Shown in pieces: positions 49,389 to 55,930 of a stretch of 64,000 nucleotides of DNA. The stretch's first letter is position 1. Every line of letters starts with the position of its first letter. Location of the stretch: NCBI RefSeq assembly GCF_002995495.1, contig NZ_PVZV01000002.1, positions 1,116,001 to 1,180,000 on the forward strand. Reading direction: 5' to 3'. Source of the DNA: Actinocorallia populi (GTDB taxonomy: Bacteria > Actinomycetota > Actinomycetes > Streptosporangiales > Streptosporangiaceae). Under the pieces are notes generated by a model. That model saw only the letters and a program-made list of their open reading frames with translations, was not told where the DNA came from and did no database searches. The translations under genes were made by a program, and so were the position numbers.

Positions 49389-51713
49389 TCAGTCGCCTCC
49401 GCCGCGCCGCGACCGCGCCAGGCCCTTCAGCCGGGCGGCGGCGCGGCGCAGGACGTCCAGGGACGAGGGCGGGAACAGCCGGGCCCGCCAGCGGGCGGGC
49501 GGGGAGGAGGAGGCGGCCAGCGCCGAGCGCACCGTCGCGGTGTCGGCGCGCAGGCTCGCGGCGGTGGCCCGCTGGGGATGGCCGGGCGGGGCGTAGCGCG
49601 ACAGCTCGCTGGCCAGGGTGATCCGGGCCAGGGGCTCGGCCACCTCGGTGCCCAGCGCGGGCCCCAGCCGGCGCAGCACTCCGCGCGGCGACTCCGCCGG
49701 ATGCCAGCCCAGCCCGTGGTCGAGGGTGTCGGCCCGCAGCTGGGACCAGGCCGCGGTGGCGGCCGCCGCGGGATCGCCGGCCCCCGCCCAGCGCCGCCGC
49801 CGGGCGGCCTCCCGCACCAGGCGGGGCGCCGCGACCAGGAGCGCCGCCGCCAGCCCGCCGAGGATCCAGCCGACGGGCAGGGGGGACCCCCCGTCCGAGG
49901 CGGCCTCGGTCTTCTGGTCCTGCGCGGCCTGCGGCTGCCCCTCGGCCCCGGGCGTGGGCCCGGGGGCGGGCGCGGTGGTGGGCGTCGAGGGGGCGGTGGG
50001 ACGGGCGTCCTCCGGCTCCTTCCGGCGGGACTCCTGGCGGGTGTAGTCGGGGATGCCCACCGAGGCGGGCGCGCCCGTCCCCGAGGGCGTGGGCTCGAAC
50101 CGCACCCAGCCGGCGCCCTCGAAGTACAGCTCCGGCCAGGCGTGGGCGTCCCGCTGGCGGACGAGGTGGCTCCCGTCGGCCTGGCGCGTGCCGGGCGCGT
50201 ACCCGACGACCACGCGGGAGGGGATGCCCAGCTCCCGGGTCATCAGCGCCATCGTCGCGGCGAACTGCTCGCAGTAGCCCTCGCGGTCGCGCAGGAAGGC
50301 CATCAGGTCCGACATCCGGCTCGGCGGCGCGGGCTCCAGCGAGTAGGTGAACTCCCGGTGGAACCAGCGCTGCAGCAGCACCGCCCGGTCGAACGGCGTG
50401 GCGCCCTTGGCGGTGACCTTCCAGGTCAGCTCGGACAGCTCCTCGGGCAGCCCGTCCGGCAGCCGGGTGTACTCCGGGGGCATGGCGTGGAACCCGGACT
50501 CGCGCAGCTGCCCGGTGGTGGGCAGGGCGCGGCGGCTGTCCACCGAGTACGTCATGCCGTCGGCGTCGTCGCCGGTGGAGAAGACCATCAGGGACTGGCG
50601 GTCGGCCCGCCAGTCGTCGCCCTCGATCCGCACCCGGCGCGGCGCGTAGGGCAGCGCCAGGAACTTCATGTCCCTGACCTTGTCGCCGACCGTGATCTCG
50701 GTGGCGCCGTCCTCGGTCGCGGCCGCCGACAGGCCGGGCACGGCGGGCAGCTCCCGGTCCTCCCGGATGAGCGGAGCCGACCCGGCGACCAGGGGGGAGT
50801 AGGTCCAGCGGTTGCCGTCGAACCGGTCGAGCGCGTAGATGCGCAGGTAGTCGGGGTCGCCGGAGGTGGTCCGGTAGCGCAGGACCTCCTCGTTGCTCAG
50901 CCGGGTGAGCTTGCGCTTGAGGTCGACCAGGGGGTCGGCGGTGGTGATGGTGGTCGAGCCGCCGCCGTCCCGCTCGCCCAGCCCGAACAACCCGGAGGTG
51001 CCCGGCAGCAGGGCGGGCACCGCGACGGACGCCGCGATCGCGGCGAGGCCGACCCGCCTGCCCGCCGAACCCGTCGGCCGCGCGCCGGGCGCCTCCTGGT
51101 CGGGGCGCGGGGTGAACACCGGGCGGCCCCAGCCCGTCACCCTGGTGCGCGCGTCGGCGACCAGCAGGGCCAGGTATCCGGCGGAGCCCGCCGCGAACGT
51201 CAGCCAGTGCACGCTCTCGGACCGCACCGCGGCCGGGACGCTGTACATGGCCAGCAGCGGCAGCCCGGCGGGCGCGGCCCGGTGCAGCCGGACGGCCAGC
51301 AGGTCCACGGTCACCGCGACCAGCCCGACGCCCAGGACGGCCAGCAGCCGCACCCCGTCGCCGACCGGCAGCGGCGCCGCGTAGGTCTCGGCGGTGTTCC
51401 AGCCCCCGCGCAGCACGTCGGCGAGCACCGACAGGGAGCCGGGGGTGGGGATCAGCCACAGGAGGGCCGAGGAGCCCGCGTACAGCGCCGTCACGTACAG
51501 CAGCAGGACGGCGGGGCCGGCCAGCAGGTCGAGCGCCGGGGCCAGCCGCAGCCGCCGGGAGACCATCGCGGTCACCGTCACCACCACGACGGCGCCCGTG
51601 ACGGGGGCGATCCAGCTGCGGTCCTGGAAGAGCGGGTAGAGGCTGGTGGCGCCCAGGAGCGTCGCCAGGGCCGCGAGCGCGCTCAGCCCCGGCCTGACAC
51701 CCGGCTCGTTCAT
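49389..51713 (-). CDS. DUF3488/transglutaminase-like membrane protein (TgpA type)
   Basis: 774 aa. Six or so membrane helices in 1-240, an extracytoplasmic transglutaminase-like domain, one more helix near 620-640, and a cytosolic tail with DUF4129-like character. Catalytic Cys481 in GYCEQFAATMALM and His524 in RDAHAWPELYFEG; the third residue, often Asp, is Glu540 in VRFEPTP. Last gene of a moxR-DUF58-transglutaminase operon that is widespread in actinomycetes beside the division cluster. Likely cell envelope protein processing; substrate unknown. Confidence 0.9.
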   Translation of the reverse strand: MNEPGVRPGLSALAALATLLGATSLYPLFQDRSWIAPVTGAVVVVTVTAMVSRRLRLAPALDLLAGPAVLLLYVTALYAGSSALLWLIPTPGSLSVLADVLRGGWNTAETYAAPLPVGDGVRLLAVLGVGLVAVTVDLLAVRLHRAAPAGLPLLAMYSVPAAVRSESVHWLTFAAGSAGYLALLVADARTRVTGWGRPVFTPRPDQEAPGARPTGSAGRRVGLAAIAASVAVPALLPGTSGLFGLGERDGGGSTTITTADPLVDLKRKLTRLSNEEVLRYRTTSGDPDYLRIYALDRFDGNRWTYSPLVAGSAPLIREDRELPAVPGLSAAATEDGATEITVGDKVRDMKFLALPYAPRRVRIEGDDWRADRQSLMVFSTGDDADGMTYSVDSRRALPTTGQLRESGFHAMPPEYTRLPDGLPEELSELTWKVTAKGATPFDRAVLLQRWFHREFTYSLEPAPPSRMSDLMAFLRDREGYCEQFAATMALMTRELGIPSRVVVGYAPGTRQADGSHLVRQRDAHAWPELYFEGAGWVRFEPTPSGTGAPASVGIPDYTRQESRRKEPEDARPTAPSTPTTAPAPGPTPGAEGQPQAAQDQKTEAASDGGSPLPVGWILGGLAAALLVAAPRLVREAARRRRWAGAGDPAAAATAAWSQLRADTLDHGLGWHPAESPRGVLRRLGPALGTEVAEPLARITLASELSRYAPPGHPQRATAASLRADTATVRSALAASSSPPARWRARLFPPSSLDVLRRAAARLKGLARSRRGGGD

Positions 51714-51731: not shown

Positions 51732-52967
51732 TTACTCATCCGGTGCTCCCTGCACGCCCGCCCAGGCGGCGGGCAGTTCGGTGACCGAGGACAGGACCAG
51801 CACCCGCCAGCCGGCGCGGCGCAGGAAGCCGGCGGCGTCGTAGGGCGCCCCCGGCTGGCCCAGCAGCACCGCGACGCCGATCGCGGTGCCGCGCCGGGCG
51901 GAGGCGACCGCCCCGGCCTCCTCGGAGGTCAGCCGCCCGAAGACCCCGACGATCAGCGCCTCGCCGTCGCGCCCCCCGGAGCCGCGCACCGCGGCGAGTC
52001 CCGGCAGCAGGGCCGTGCCGTCGCCCTGCCCGATGACGGCGAGCACGTCCAGCAGCTCCCCGCCCGCGGCGGGTCCCGAACCGGCGGGGAGGTCGGCGCC
52101 GCGGCCCGCGTCGGTGACCAGGCGCAGCGGCAGCCCCTCGCGGGCCAGGTGGGCGCCCACCGAGGCGGCGACCGACACCGCCTGCTCGAAGGAGGAGCCC
52201 GGACCCTCCCCGGTGTGCGCGCCGCGCCGGGTGTCCAGCAGCAGGACGGCGCGGCTCTGCCACTGCTGCTCCTCGCGCCGGACCATCAGCTCGCCGTAGC
52301 GGGCGGTGGAGCGCCAGTGGACCCGGCGCGGGTCGTCGCCGCGCCGGTACTCCCGCGGCACCACGTCGTCCTCGCCCGCGGCGGACAGGGCGCGGGCGAG
52401 GTTCTGCCCCTCGCCGTGCCAGGCGCCGGGGACGCGCCCGGGCGGCAGCTCGACGGTGAGCGGGGTGACGGTCAGGGTGTCGGTGAGGCTGAAGGAGCGG
52501 GCCAGCTCCACCAGGCCGAACGGGTCGGCCAGCCGGACGGTCAGCGGCCCGATCTTGAACCGGCCCCGCACGTCCGAGCGCAGCCGGTAGCTCAGCTCCC
52601 GGGAGCCCAGCGGCTCGATCCGGTCGAGCACGAACCTGGCGCGGCCGCCCAGGGTGTAGGGCACCCGGTCCTCCACCAGCAGCAGCCCCGTCGGCAGCCG
52701 CGAGACGTTCTCCAGCCGCAGGTCCGCCCTGGCCTCGTGGCCGACGGGCAGCCGGGAGGGCCCGAGCCGCCGCGCGCAGGCCAGCCGGTAGCGGGTGCGC
52801 GAGACGGCGAACACCGCGAACAGCGGCAGGACCAGCACCAGCATCCCGGCCCGCAGCAGGTCCTGCTCGCCGAGCAGGAACGCGCACACCACCGCGGTCA
52901 GCCCGGCCGCCATGAACGACCGCCCCCGGGTGGTGAGCGCGTCCAGCGCCACCTTCACCAGCCGCAC
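51732..52967 (-). CDS. DUF58 protein (von Willebrand-like, MoxR partner)
   Basis: 411 aa. Two membrane helices (about 18-50) followed by an extracytoplasmic-type beta region and the DUF58 core with VVPREYRRGDDPRRVHWRSTARYGELMVR near 218-246, the family signature. The C-terminal part resembles a vWA fold (AVLLLDTRRG). GTG 52967 lies two bases after the moxR stop. DUF58 proteins are thought to work with MoxR AAA ATPases in assembling protein complexes. Confidence 0.9.
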   Translation of the reverse strand: MRLVKVALDALTTRGRSFMAAGLTAVVCAFLLGEQDLLRAGMLVLVLPLFAVFAVSRTRYRLACARRLGPSRLPVGHEARADLRLENVSRLPTGLLLVEDRVPYTLGGRARFVLDRIEPLGSRELSYRLRSDVRGRFKIGPLTVRLADPFGLVELARSFSLTDTLTVTPLTVELPPGRVPGAWHGEGQNLARALSAAGEDDVVPREYRRGDDPRRVHWRSTARYGELMVRREEQQWQSRAVLLLDTRRGAHTGEGPGSSFEQAVSVAASVGAHLAREGLPLRLVTDAGRGADLPAGSGPAAGGELLDVLAVIGQGDGTALLPGLAAVRGSGGRDGEALIVGVFGRLTSEEAGAVASARRGTAIGVAVLLGQPGAPYDAAGFLRRAGWRVLVLSSVTELPAAWAGVQGAPDE

Positions 52968-52969
52968 GG

Positions 52970-53947
52970 TCAGCCCCGTACGGGCAGCCGGGCCACCAGC
53001 TCGCTCACGATCTGCTCCGGGCGCCGCCGTTCGACCTGGGCCTCGGCGGTGGTCAGCAGCCGGTGCGCCAGCACCGGGACGGCCAGCGCCTGCAGGTCGT
53101 CGGGGAGCACGTACTCGCGCTCCTCCAGCGCCGCGCGGGCCCGCGCGGCGCGCACCAGCTGCAGGGTGGCCCGCGGGGAGGCGCCCAGGCGCAGCTCCGG
53201 GTGGGCGCGGGTGGCGTTGACCAGGTCGACGGCGTACTGCTTGACCGCGGGGGAGGTGTGCACGGCGCGCACCTCCTCGATGAGCGAGCGCACGTCCGCG
53301 ACGGTCGCGGCGGGCGTGATGGCGTCCAGAGGGGAGGTGCGGCTGTGGCTGTCGAGCATGTCCAGCTCGGCGTTGGGGCTGGGGTAGCCCATGGAGATCC
53401 GCGCGGTGAACCGGTCGCGCTGTGCCTCGGGCAGCGGGTACGTGCCCTCCATCTCGACCGGGTTCTGGGTGGCGATCACCATGAACGGGCGCTCCAGCGG
53501 GTAGGTGGTGCCGTCCACCGTCACCTGGCGCTCCTCCATGCACTCCAGCAGCGCCGACTGGGTCTTGGGGGAGGCGCGGTTGATCTCGTCGCCGATGAGG
53601 AGGTTGGCGAAGACCGGTCCGGGCACGAACTCGAACGCCCGCCGGTCCTGCTGGTAGACGCCGACGCCGGTGATGTCGCTGGGCAGCAGGTCGGGGGTGA
53701 ACTGCACCCGGCGCACCGTGCCGTCGATGGCGCGGGCGAGCGTCTTGGCGAGCATGGTCTTGCCCACGCCCGGCACGTCCTCGATGAGGAGGTGCCCCTC
53801 GGCGAGCATGACGATCAGCGCCAGCCGCACCGCCTCGGACTTGCCCTCGATGACGGACTCGACGGTCGCCCGGATCTTTCCCGCCCTGCCCGCGACCCCG
53901 CCGAAGCCGCGTCCGACGCCGGCCTCGCCCTGCACACCCACTGCCAC
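52970..53947 (-). CDS. MoxR-family AAA ATPase
   Basis: 325 aa. Walker A VPGVGKTM near 58-65, Walker B LLIGDEINRA at 116-125, sensor MVIATQNPVEMEGTYPLPEAQ near 156-176. GTG 53947 is preferred over an upstream TTG because the GGCGGAGAC site is well placed. First gene of the moxR-DUF58-transglutaminase operon. Acts as a chaperone-like ATPase, probably activating its vWA/DUF58 partner. Confidence 0.93.
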   Translation of the reverse strand: MAVGVQGEAGVGRGFGGVAGRAGKIRATVESVIEGKSEAVRLALIVMLAEGHLLIEDVPGVGKTMLAKTLARAIDGTVRRVQFTPDLLPSDITGVGVYQQDRRAFEFVPGPVFANLLIGDEINRASPKTQSALLECMEERQVTVDGTTYPLERPFMVIATQNPVEMEGTYPLPEAQRDRFTARISMGYPSPNAELDMLDSHSRTSPLDAITPAATVADVRSLIEEVRAVHTSPAVKQYAVDLVNATRAHPELRLGASPRATLQLVRAARARAALEEREYVLPDDLQALAVPVLAHRLLTTAEAQVERRRPEQIVSELVARLPVRG

Positions 53948-54021
53948 GAAGTCTCCGCCCTGAGTCCGCCCTTGTTCCAGGGCCAAATGTATTGCTCTTC
54001 ACGCGCTGATGCGGTTGGAGC

Positions 54022-54052: not shown

Positions 54053-54181
54053 TAAGCAGCCGGATAACCTTCCCGGCGTTACCGACAGTACGCCGCTAAG
54101 TGCGTCATCGGTCATGTTTCGGACATCCCACAGTCATCCCCCGGATGCGCCCGCCGCTCGCGTCCCGGGGCCCCGCCGCCG

Positions 54182-54197
54182 CCCCACTCCGCCCCAC
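54182..54197 (-). promoter_or_regulatory. Inverted pair of MraZ-like boxes facing moxR
   Basis: On the minus strand GTGGGG at 54197-54192 and GTGGGG at 54187-54182 recur with the same 10-bp period as the boxes before mraZ, but in the opposite orientation and nearer the moxR side. Confidence 0.4.
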
Positions 54198-54254
54198 CCA
54201 TGCTGAGCAGGCAATTTCACATCTCCATGTCTCCAGGAACACAGGTTTTCACAG

Positions 54255-54300
54255 TTGACGGTGGGGAAGAGTGGAGTACAGTGGGGCGCTGTGGGGGAAG
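54255..54300 (+). promoter_or_regulatory. mraZ promoter with four MraZ boxes
   Basis: TTGACG (54255-54260) and TACAGT (54277-54282), 16 bases apart, form the promoter of the division cluster. Four GTGG(G/A)G units start at 54261, 54271, 54281 and 54291, exactly 10 bp apart. MraZ is known to bind TGGGN repeats with 5-base spacers and repress its own promoter, so this is the expected operator, overlapping -10 and start site. Confidence 0.8.
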
Positions 54301-54361: not shown

Positions 54362-54793
54362 GTGTTCCTCGGAACACACCCACTTCGCCTCGACGACAAA
54401 GGACGACTGTTCCTGCCGGCCAAGTACCGCGAGGAGCTGTCTGGGGGACTGGTGATCACGAAGGGCCAGGAACGCTGCCTGTACGTCTTCCCCATGGCGG
54501 AGTTCGAGCGCATCACCGAGGCGCTGGCCACGGCACCCGTCACCGCCAGGTCCGTCCGCGCCTACAGCCGGGTCTTCTTCGCCAGCGCCTCCGACGAGGT
54601 CCCCGACAAGAGCGGCCGCATCACGGTCCCGGCGGCGCTGCGCGCCTACGCCGGACTGGAGCGCGACTGCGCGGTCATCGGGGCCAACTCCCGCCTTGAG
54701 ATCTGGGACGCGCCCTCCTGGGAGGCCTATCTGGCCCAGGAGGAGGAGTCCTTCTCCGACCTGTCGGAGGAGGTGCTGCCCGGAATTCTCTAG
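54362..54793 (+). CDS. mraZ: Transcriptional regulator MraZ
   Basis: 143 aa, the normal length. Two AbrB-like repeats: [20 protein letters not shown] with KYREEL (1-26) and [20 protein letters not shown] near 78-100, each with the conserved DxxGR...P motif. Binds its own promoter as a ring-shaped oligomer and controls the dcw cluster. GTG 54362 starts exactly at the family's usual VFLG; the GAGGGGG site lies nine to ten bases before it. Confidence 0.95.
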
Positions 54794-54976
54794 TACGACC
54801 CCGCAGGGCCCACGCCCGGCCAGGTCTCCACCCGCTCTCTCCGCCAGCTGGCGCAGCTTCCCCGGCGCCAGGTGGCCCTTCCTCAGGGCAGCGGTTGGGG
54901 ACCTGGCCGGACGAGCCCGCGGGTCGCATGTCCGATCGACCGCGAGCGGTCGGCTGCAGTGGGGGTAGACAAAACC
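54794..54976 (+). ncRNA. Structured spacer before rsmH (mraW RNA motif candidate)
   Basis: 183 bases without a gene. CCGGCCAGGTCTCC (54816-54829) and GGGGACCTGGCCGG (54897-54910) pair over 13 of 14 positions and enclose a second hairpin, CTGGCGC (54848-54854) with GCGCCAG (54865-54871). A conserved actinobacterial RNA called the mraW motif is known from this position. I cannot verify the match without a covariance search. Confidence 0.5.
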
Positions 54977-55930
54977 ATGAATGAGTCCGGACACGTTCCG
55001 GTCCTGCTCGACCGCGTACTGTCGACGCTGGGTCCCGCCGTGGGCAAACCGGGGGCCCTGTACGTCGACGGCACGCTCGGCATGGGCGGCCACGCCGCCG
55101 CCATGCTCGAGGCCTACCCCGAGATCCGCCTGCTCGGCCTCGACCGCGACCCCGTGGCGCTGGAGCGCGCGGGCGCGCGCCTGGCGCCCTTCGGCGACCG
55201 GGCGACGCTGGTGCACGCGGTCTACGACGAGCTCCCCGGGGTGCTGGCGAGGCTGGGCCTGGACCGCGTCGACGCGGTCCTGTTCGACCTGGGCGTCTCC
55301 TCGCCCCAGCTGGACGAACCCGAGCGCGGGTTCGCCTATTCCTATGACGCTCCGCTGGACATGCGCATGGACCAGACCAGGGGCATGACCGCCGCGGACG
55401 TGGTGAACACCTATCCGCCGGCGGACCTGGCGCGGATCCTGCGCGAGTACGGGGAGGAGCGCTTCGCCCAGCGCGTCGCCTCGGCGATCGCGCGCGAGCG
55501 GGCCAAGGAGCCGTTCACCGGCACCCTCCGGCTGGCCGAGCTGGTGCGCACGGCCATCCCGGCGGCCACCCGCCGGAGCGGCGGCAACCCCGCCAAGCGC
55601 ACCTTCCAGGCGTTGCGCATCGAGGTCAACAGCGAGCTGAAGGTCTGGGAGCGGGCGCTGCCCGCGGCCCTGGACGCGCTCGCGGTGGGCGGCCGGGTCG
55701 CCGTGCTGTCCTACCACTCCCTGGAGGACAGGATCACCAAGCGGGTCCTGGCCGAGCGCACCACCGACCACACCCCGGCGGGGCTTCCGGTGTCGCTGCC
55801 GGAGTTCGAGCCGAGGTTCCGCCTGCTCACCCGGGGGAGCGAGCAGGCTTCCGAAGAGGAGATCAGCAGCAATCCGCGAGCGGCATCCGTCCGGTTCCGC
55901 GCGGCGGAACGGGTTCGGGAGGACACATGA
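54977..55930 (+). CDS. rsmH: 16S rRNA (cytosine1402-N4)-methyltransferase RsmH (MraW)
   Basis: 317 aa. [10 protein letters not shown] start, [12 protein letters not shown] near 29-40 (SAM site), LLGLDRDP near 52-59, [21 protein letters not shown] near 98-118, [12 protein letters not shown] near 211-222 and [15 protein letters not shown] near 244-258. Methylates 16S rRNA at C1402. ATG 54977 has a GTGGGGG purine run about 14 bases upstream. Stop overlaps ftsL start (ATGA). Confidence 0.96.

Follow-up and report, generated by a model that had tools for sequence, protein, structure and literature searches.

An inverted pair of MraZ-like boxes conserved upstream of mraZ in relatives of Actinocorallia populi: a candidate second MraZ operator

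The regulator MraZ is very widely conserved among bacteria, and its boxes at the division cluster of E. coli were reportedly described by Eraso et al. in 2014. According to the passages on MraZ in two papers, the E. coli and Mycoplasma proteins repress their own gene cluster through repeated boxes, and binding as an octamer is mentioned (PMC8475190, PMC5282649). The site of Mollicutes is given in these passages as (AAAGTGKN3)3 (PMC5282649, PMC8475190), and the MraZ sites described in those of one paper consist of three or more direct units (PMC5282649). Among the matches listed by searches of an open-licence literature collection, no title or abstract opening reports inverted MraZ boxes or a link between MraZ and moxR. 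For the action of MraZ at the division cluster, a conserved inverted second site offers a testable architecture in actinobacteria.

The window, i.e., the whole stretch of 64,000 nucleotides from A. populi that was analysed, includes mraZ and, in the divergent direction, a moxR-DUF58-transglutaminase operon. The MraZ encoded here matches MraZ proteins of solved structure. The features considered are the following:

49389..51713, minus strand, TgpA_N / transglutaminase-core gene
51732..52952, minus strand, DUF58 gene (PF01882), approximate start
52970..53986, minus strand, moxR (AAA_3); comparison by eye with genus mates makes the GTG at 53947 the probable real start
54084..54092, minus strand, CGTACTGTC, part of the conserved moxR-side motif CGTACTGTCG, a possible moxR promoter element
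54182..54197, minus strand, two MraZ-like boxes in inverted orientation, GTGGGG-CGGA-GTGGGG, a proposed second mraZ operator lying upstream
54204..54211, plus strand, TGACCTG-like element in its local variant TGAGCAGG, 57 bp before the first direct box
54255..54282, plus strand, TTGACG-16-TACAGT in front of mraZ, promoter-like by consensus match only; it overlaps with the direct boxes
54261..54296, plus strand, four direct MraZ-like boxes with a 10-bp period, GTGGGG-AAGA-GTGGAG-TACA-GTGGGG-CGCT-GTGGGG, proposed main operator
54362..54793, plus strand, mraZ (PF02381), GTG start inferred from homologues
54872..55930, plus strand, rsmH (mraW; PF01795), open frame from the first possible start

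A terminator-like stem followed by a T-rich tail was also seen on the minus strand at 54059-54077, between the moxR-side motif and moxR (shuffles average 0.3).

The preliminary description of this DNA had claimed a second pair of GTGGGG units with the same 10-bp period, facing the opposite way, and had named GC-rich noise among the things that would undo its reading. The pair is present: read on the minus strand, 54182-54197 is GTGGGGCGGAGTGGGG, in which two GTGGGG units with a 10-bp period face the direct array. It lies 79 bp upstream of the first direct box, leaving 63 bp between pair and array. Bare counts did not separate it from chance. Allowing up to one mismatch, the window holds 4 matches against a shuffle mean of 1.72, a number reached in 12 of 100 shuffles and so not significant, and the 13 sites of the form GTGGRG-N4-GTGGRG in the whole 8.25-Mb genome equal the 13 of the reversed-letter control. 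Four of these 13 sites lie within 115 bp in the mraZ gap, as do two of the three genomic sites in which both units are GTGGGG. While the counts are not significant, location and conservation mark the inverted pair as beyond chance.

Conservation was assessed in 90 family regions. Out of 111 sequences, the window among them, these are the ones that differ from one another in the 140 bp directly before mraZ; they were drawn from the best 30 and the best 80 matching loci, and the sample therefore favours close relatives. All 90 carry the four-box direct array, and in 68 a strict inverted pair precedes the first direct box by 77-79 bp. When the same 140 bp were shuffled with dinucleotides preserved (200 rounds), a mean of 0.1 of the 90 regions had a pair anywhere and none had one at 77-79 bp, so that the objection of GC-rich noise fails. 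Orientation and spacing were restricted as well. Direct-orientation pairs were found in none of the 90 upstream regions of 140 bp, and inverted pairs occurred in 70 regions at a gap of 4 and in 0-3 at other gaps, which shows that a gap of exactly 4 is needed. The strict reversed-letter control CACCNC-N4-CACCNC matched 5 of 90 regions at gap 4, and the CACCNC control matched 7 at gap 1. With mismatches allowed, 9 or all 10 of the 10 core bases were found at 76-80 bp in 79 of 89 regions (one of the 90 was too short); at a control position another 30 bp upstream, none of these 89 scored above 7 of 10. The remaining 10 fell below 9 of 10, the pair being largely lost in L007, L012 and L017. Chance and GC noise were thus ruled out for the inverted pair by the position, orientation and spacing controls. 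The three genomes of the genus all have the pair at 79 bp. Among eight family genomes taken from a wider draw of the class and provided with upstream sequence, the pair was strict in three, had 9 of 10 core bases in three and was missing in two.

An inverted copy is complementary to the direct array by nature, and pairing of the two in an RNA or DNA hairpin was considered for this reason. Of three registers compared at the six variable positions, two gave no co-change, the observed match being reached in 128 and 55 of 200 shuffles of the partners, and the third gave a weak one (6 of 200). A hairpin with the array was rejected for want of clear co-change, and we regard it as highly improbable.

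The pair was also sought beyond the family. In 197 class genomes, the pair together with three direct units was matched in 18 (reversed control, 0). With two direct units, matches were found in 24 genomes at gaps of 51-80 bp, in 27 at gaps of 81-110 bp, partly the same loci reached through later boxes, and in 2 at gaps of 21-50 bp, the control giving 4 in each case. Coordinates or a reading of the locus placed the match at mraZ in 21 of the 24 genomes, and in 2 it was found only elsewhere; for the 27 genomes, at least three matches lie away from mraZ, including one from a genus with no mraZ in the genomes sampled. A phylum sample gave matches in 11 of 198 genomes (control, 1), 8 of them outside the class; seven of these eight were fetched, and mraZ lies beside the match in all seven. 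Of loci L111-L214, 103 had enough upstream sequence (L126 had none), and 98 were anchored to the promoter, 5 being dropped. In the 90 anchored regions outside the family, a strict pair was found within 160 bp in 19, spanning 10 of 33 families; direct pairs occurred in 12 of the same regions and the reversed-letter control in 4. No strict inverted pair was present within that distance in the other 23 of the 33 families. The inverted pair is dispensable, since it is strict in only three of the eight family genomes of the class draw and missing from these 23 families. Two further arrangements were observed. In family f19, loci L297 and L298 have, in addition to an inverted pair, another direct GTGGGG array on the upstream side of the one at the promoter, and genome G232 has two copies of mraZ (contigs C39 and C64), both with an inverted pair and TGACCTG upstream.

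The preliminary description had tentatively assigned the pair at 54182-54197 to MraZ and, through it, to control of the moxR-DUF58-transglutaminase operon. That the pair would be the MraZ operator of this divergent operon is suggested by its orientation, which faces moxR, but its position does not agree with such a role. Within the family, the distance from the pair to the mraZ array has a standard deviation of 0.45 bp (n = 68), whereas that to the moxR-side motif CGTACTGTCG, which in its 10-base form is found in 57 of 90 regions, has a standard deviation of 40 bp and ranges from 77 to 288 (n = 49), and the pair therefore holds no constrained place relative to the moxR promoter. Moreover, outside the family the pair is found at mraZ where other genes lie upstream. 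The next identified gene upstream, small genes possibly intervening, is MurT, a polyprenyl synthetase (0.76-0.80 kb distant, two loci), an LppM-domain gene at a distance of 0.85 kb, or a methyltransferase that stands in tandem with a moxR lying further out. Because the distance to the array is fixed, that to the moxR motif is variable and other upstream neighbours occur, the pair is tied to mraZ: it belongs to mraZ, not to moxR. The reading of this pair as a moxR operator was rejected on the variation in distance and on the other neighbour genes; we hold it to be unlikely, and the pair is better read as part of mraZ autoregulation than of moxR control.

A wider link between MraZ and moxR found some support in the relatives. 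A further inverted pair, beyond the first, is present in 58 of the 90 family regions, 170-267 bp from the array (two entries at 87-88 bp are shifted first pairs), and this speaks for control of moxR by inverted boxes. A GTGGAGCACAATGG-like motif lies on the moxR strand in 33 of the 90 regions; 27 of these also have the further pair, which in 25 of the 27 stands 28-32 bp from the motif (distances obtained by subtraction). L044, L057 and L080 are among the loci where a second inverted pair was seen about 30 bp before the GTGGAGCACAATGG-like motif on the moxR side. The window itself has no strict further inverted pair, the best non-overlapping match having 7 of 10 core bases, and this counts against a moxR operator at the locus studied here. 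The idea of a link between MraZ and moxR thus survives in relatives and does not extend to the window in strict form. Where it is present, the further pair nearer to moxR is a better candidate for MraZ control of moxR than the pair at 54182-54197, and Actinomadura-like relatives, with their second inverted pair, are the place to look for the link.

As to the protein that recognizes the pair, MraZ is the obvious candidate. The units have a GTGG core at a 10-bp period and are conserved upstream of mraZ. In one genus (family f18), none of the 10 sampled genomes gave a mraZ match and moxR still lies upstream of rsmH, so mraZ seems to have been lost. The moxR-rsmH gaps of these 10 genomes, 12.25 kb in total, have no inverted pair. 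Since the mraZ-side DNA may have left together with mraZ, this absence supports MraZ as the binder and does not prove it. Of the earlier reading, then, the part that stood is that the units are MraZ-type, with the same core and period, conservation at mraZ and absence from all 10 mraZ-less genomes; the part that fell is the assignment to moxR. The described operators have at least three direct units and the array here has four; because the inverted pair has two units only, we classify it as a variant MraZ operator and not as a standard one. Its units are very probably MraZ boxes, and it is likely that MraZ binds them. A protein other than MraZ could be the binder, given that the pair adjoins the conserved TGACCTG-like element and that binding by MraZ is a prediction. 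Against this stand the GTGGNG core, the 10-bp period, spacer letters that in part match those of the direct array, and the absence of the pair from the 10 mraZ-less genomes, and we consider a different binder very improbable.

The TGACCTG-like element lies between the pair and the promoter. Of the 90 family regions, 78 match TGA[C/G]C[T/A]G at exactly 56 bp from the first direct box, on its upstream side, and 82 at 55-57 bp. In several other families the element is found 21-22 bp from the pair while both move together relative to the array; each is also found without the other. Of 120 family genomes, 53 matched a composite of the pair and strict TGACCTG; the reversed control matched none. Of 57 composite places, compared by eye with the mraZ coordinates, at least 46 are at mraZ, and at least 7 lie away from it or belong to a genome that gave no mraZ match. 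This strict composite is absent from the window, which has TGAGCAGG, and from its two genus mates. Among the 10 mraZ-less genomes, 2 have TGACCTG or the complementary sequence between moxR and rsmH. Inspection by eye of aligned relatives revealed no conserved -10 for a second plus-strand promoter at TGACC. In Dietzia, MtrA binds the mraZ promoter region, as stated in passages of PMC9602371. The likeness lies in another regulator of an actinobacterium that binds around the mraZ promoter; the difference is that the passages on MtrA give no site sequence to compare with the TGACCTG-like element (PMC9602371). Our search found no binder of the element and no link between it and MtrA. Conserved together with the pair, the element points to a second input into division control.

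The distances between pair and array outside the family fall near values such as 77, 87, 99 and 110. Nineteen loci measured by machine gave a resultant of 0.55 at a helical period of 10.5 bp (p ~0.002 vs uniform) and 0.64 at 11 bp. For 33 hand-entered distances, partly read by eye, it was 0.59 at 10.5 bp, a value reached by none of 20000 random sets, and 0.70 at 11 bp; a family-level set of 23 distances gave p 0.0006 and a hand-chosen set of 14 a resultant of 0.81. These sets consist of related lineages, so that the test is not strict, and a period of 11 bp fits at least as well as 10.5. Spacing that changes by roughly one helical turn suggests that both sites lie on the same face of the helix, as they would in a loop.

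We propose that the pair is an inverted second MraZ operator that acts jointly with the main one by means of a short DNA loop, and give this reading a probability of roughly 0.5. MraZ would bind the four direct boxes, covering the -35/-10 region, and, some 79 bp upstream, the inverted pair as well. Both sites could then be held by a single MraZ ring or by two assemblies in contact, and the 63 bp between them, with the TGACCTG-like site, would be bent into a short loop. Such a loop may make autorepression tighter or more switch-like; alternatively, it may shut a second regulator out of the TGACCTG-like site. We infer MraZ binding, joint binding, the loop and the direction of its effect from the sequence comparisons, and repression by analogy with E. 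coli and Mycoplasma. The same conservation evidence would also serve a separate MraZ site for mraZ autoregulation that forms no loop, and that either stores or nucleates MraZ or directly blocks the TGACCTG-like site. The joint movement of pair and element relative to the array agrees with this arrangement, which by itself does not predict distances in helical steps and which we find possible but doubtful. Most likely the pair functions as a second operator, reinforcing or modulating autorepression by MraZ, perhaps by way of a short loop. As a more tentative generalization, many lineages of Actinomycetota may have a two-part MraZ operator with whole-turn spacing, in which one ring clamps a loop around a TGACCTG-like site for a second division regulator.

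LacI, GalR and AraC are looping repressors with two operators, the second of which lies upstream near whole helical turns. The spacing may be alike in the arrangement proposed here; the protein fold of MraZ is unrelated to theirs, and its loop is a proposal from sequence. With E. coli, where MraZ represses its own cluster through conserved upstream boxes (PMC8475190), the locus shares such boxes, and it differs in the inverted pair, a second pair far upstream not being mentioned in the passages of that paper on the E. coli boxes (PMC8475190). The likeness to Mollicutes, as far as the passages on their sites go, lies in direct repeats with a GTG core and a 10-bp period at the mraZ promoter (PMC5282649, PMC8475190), whereas the proposed operator region here has a GC-rich GTGGRG core, with four direct boxes and an inverted pair.
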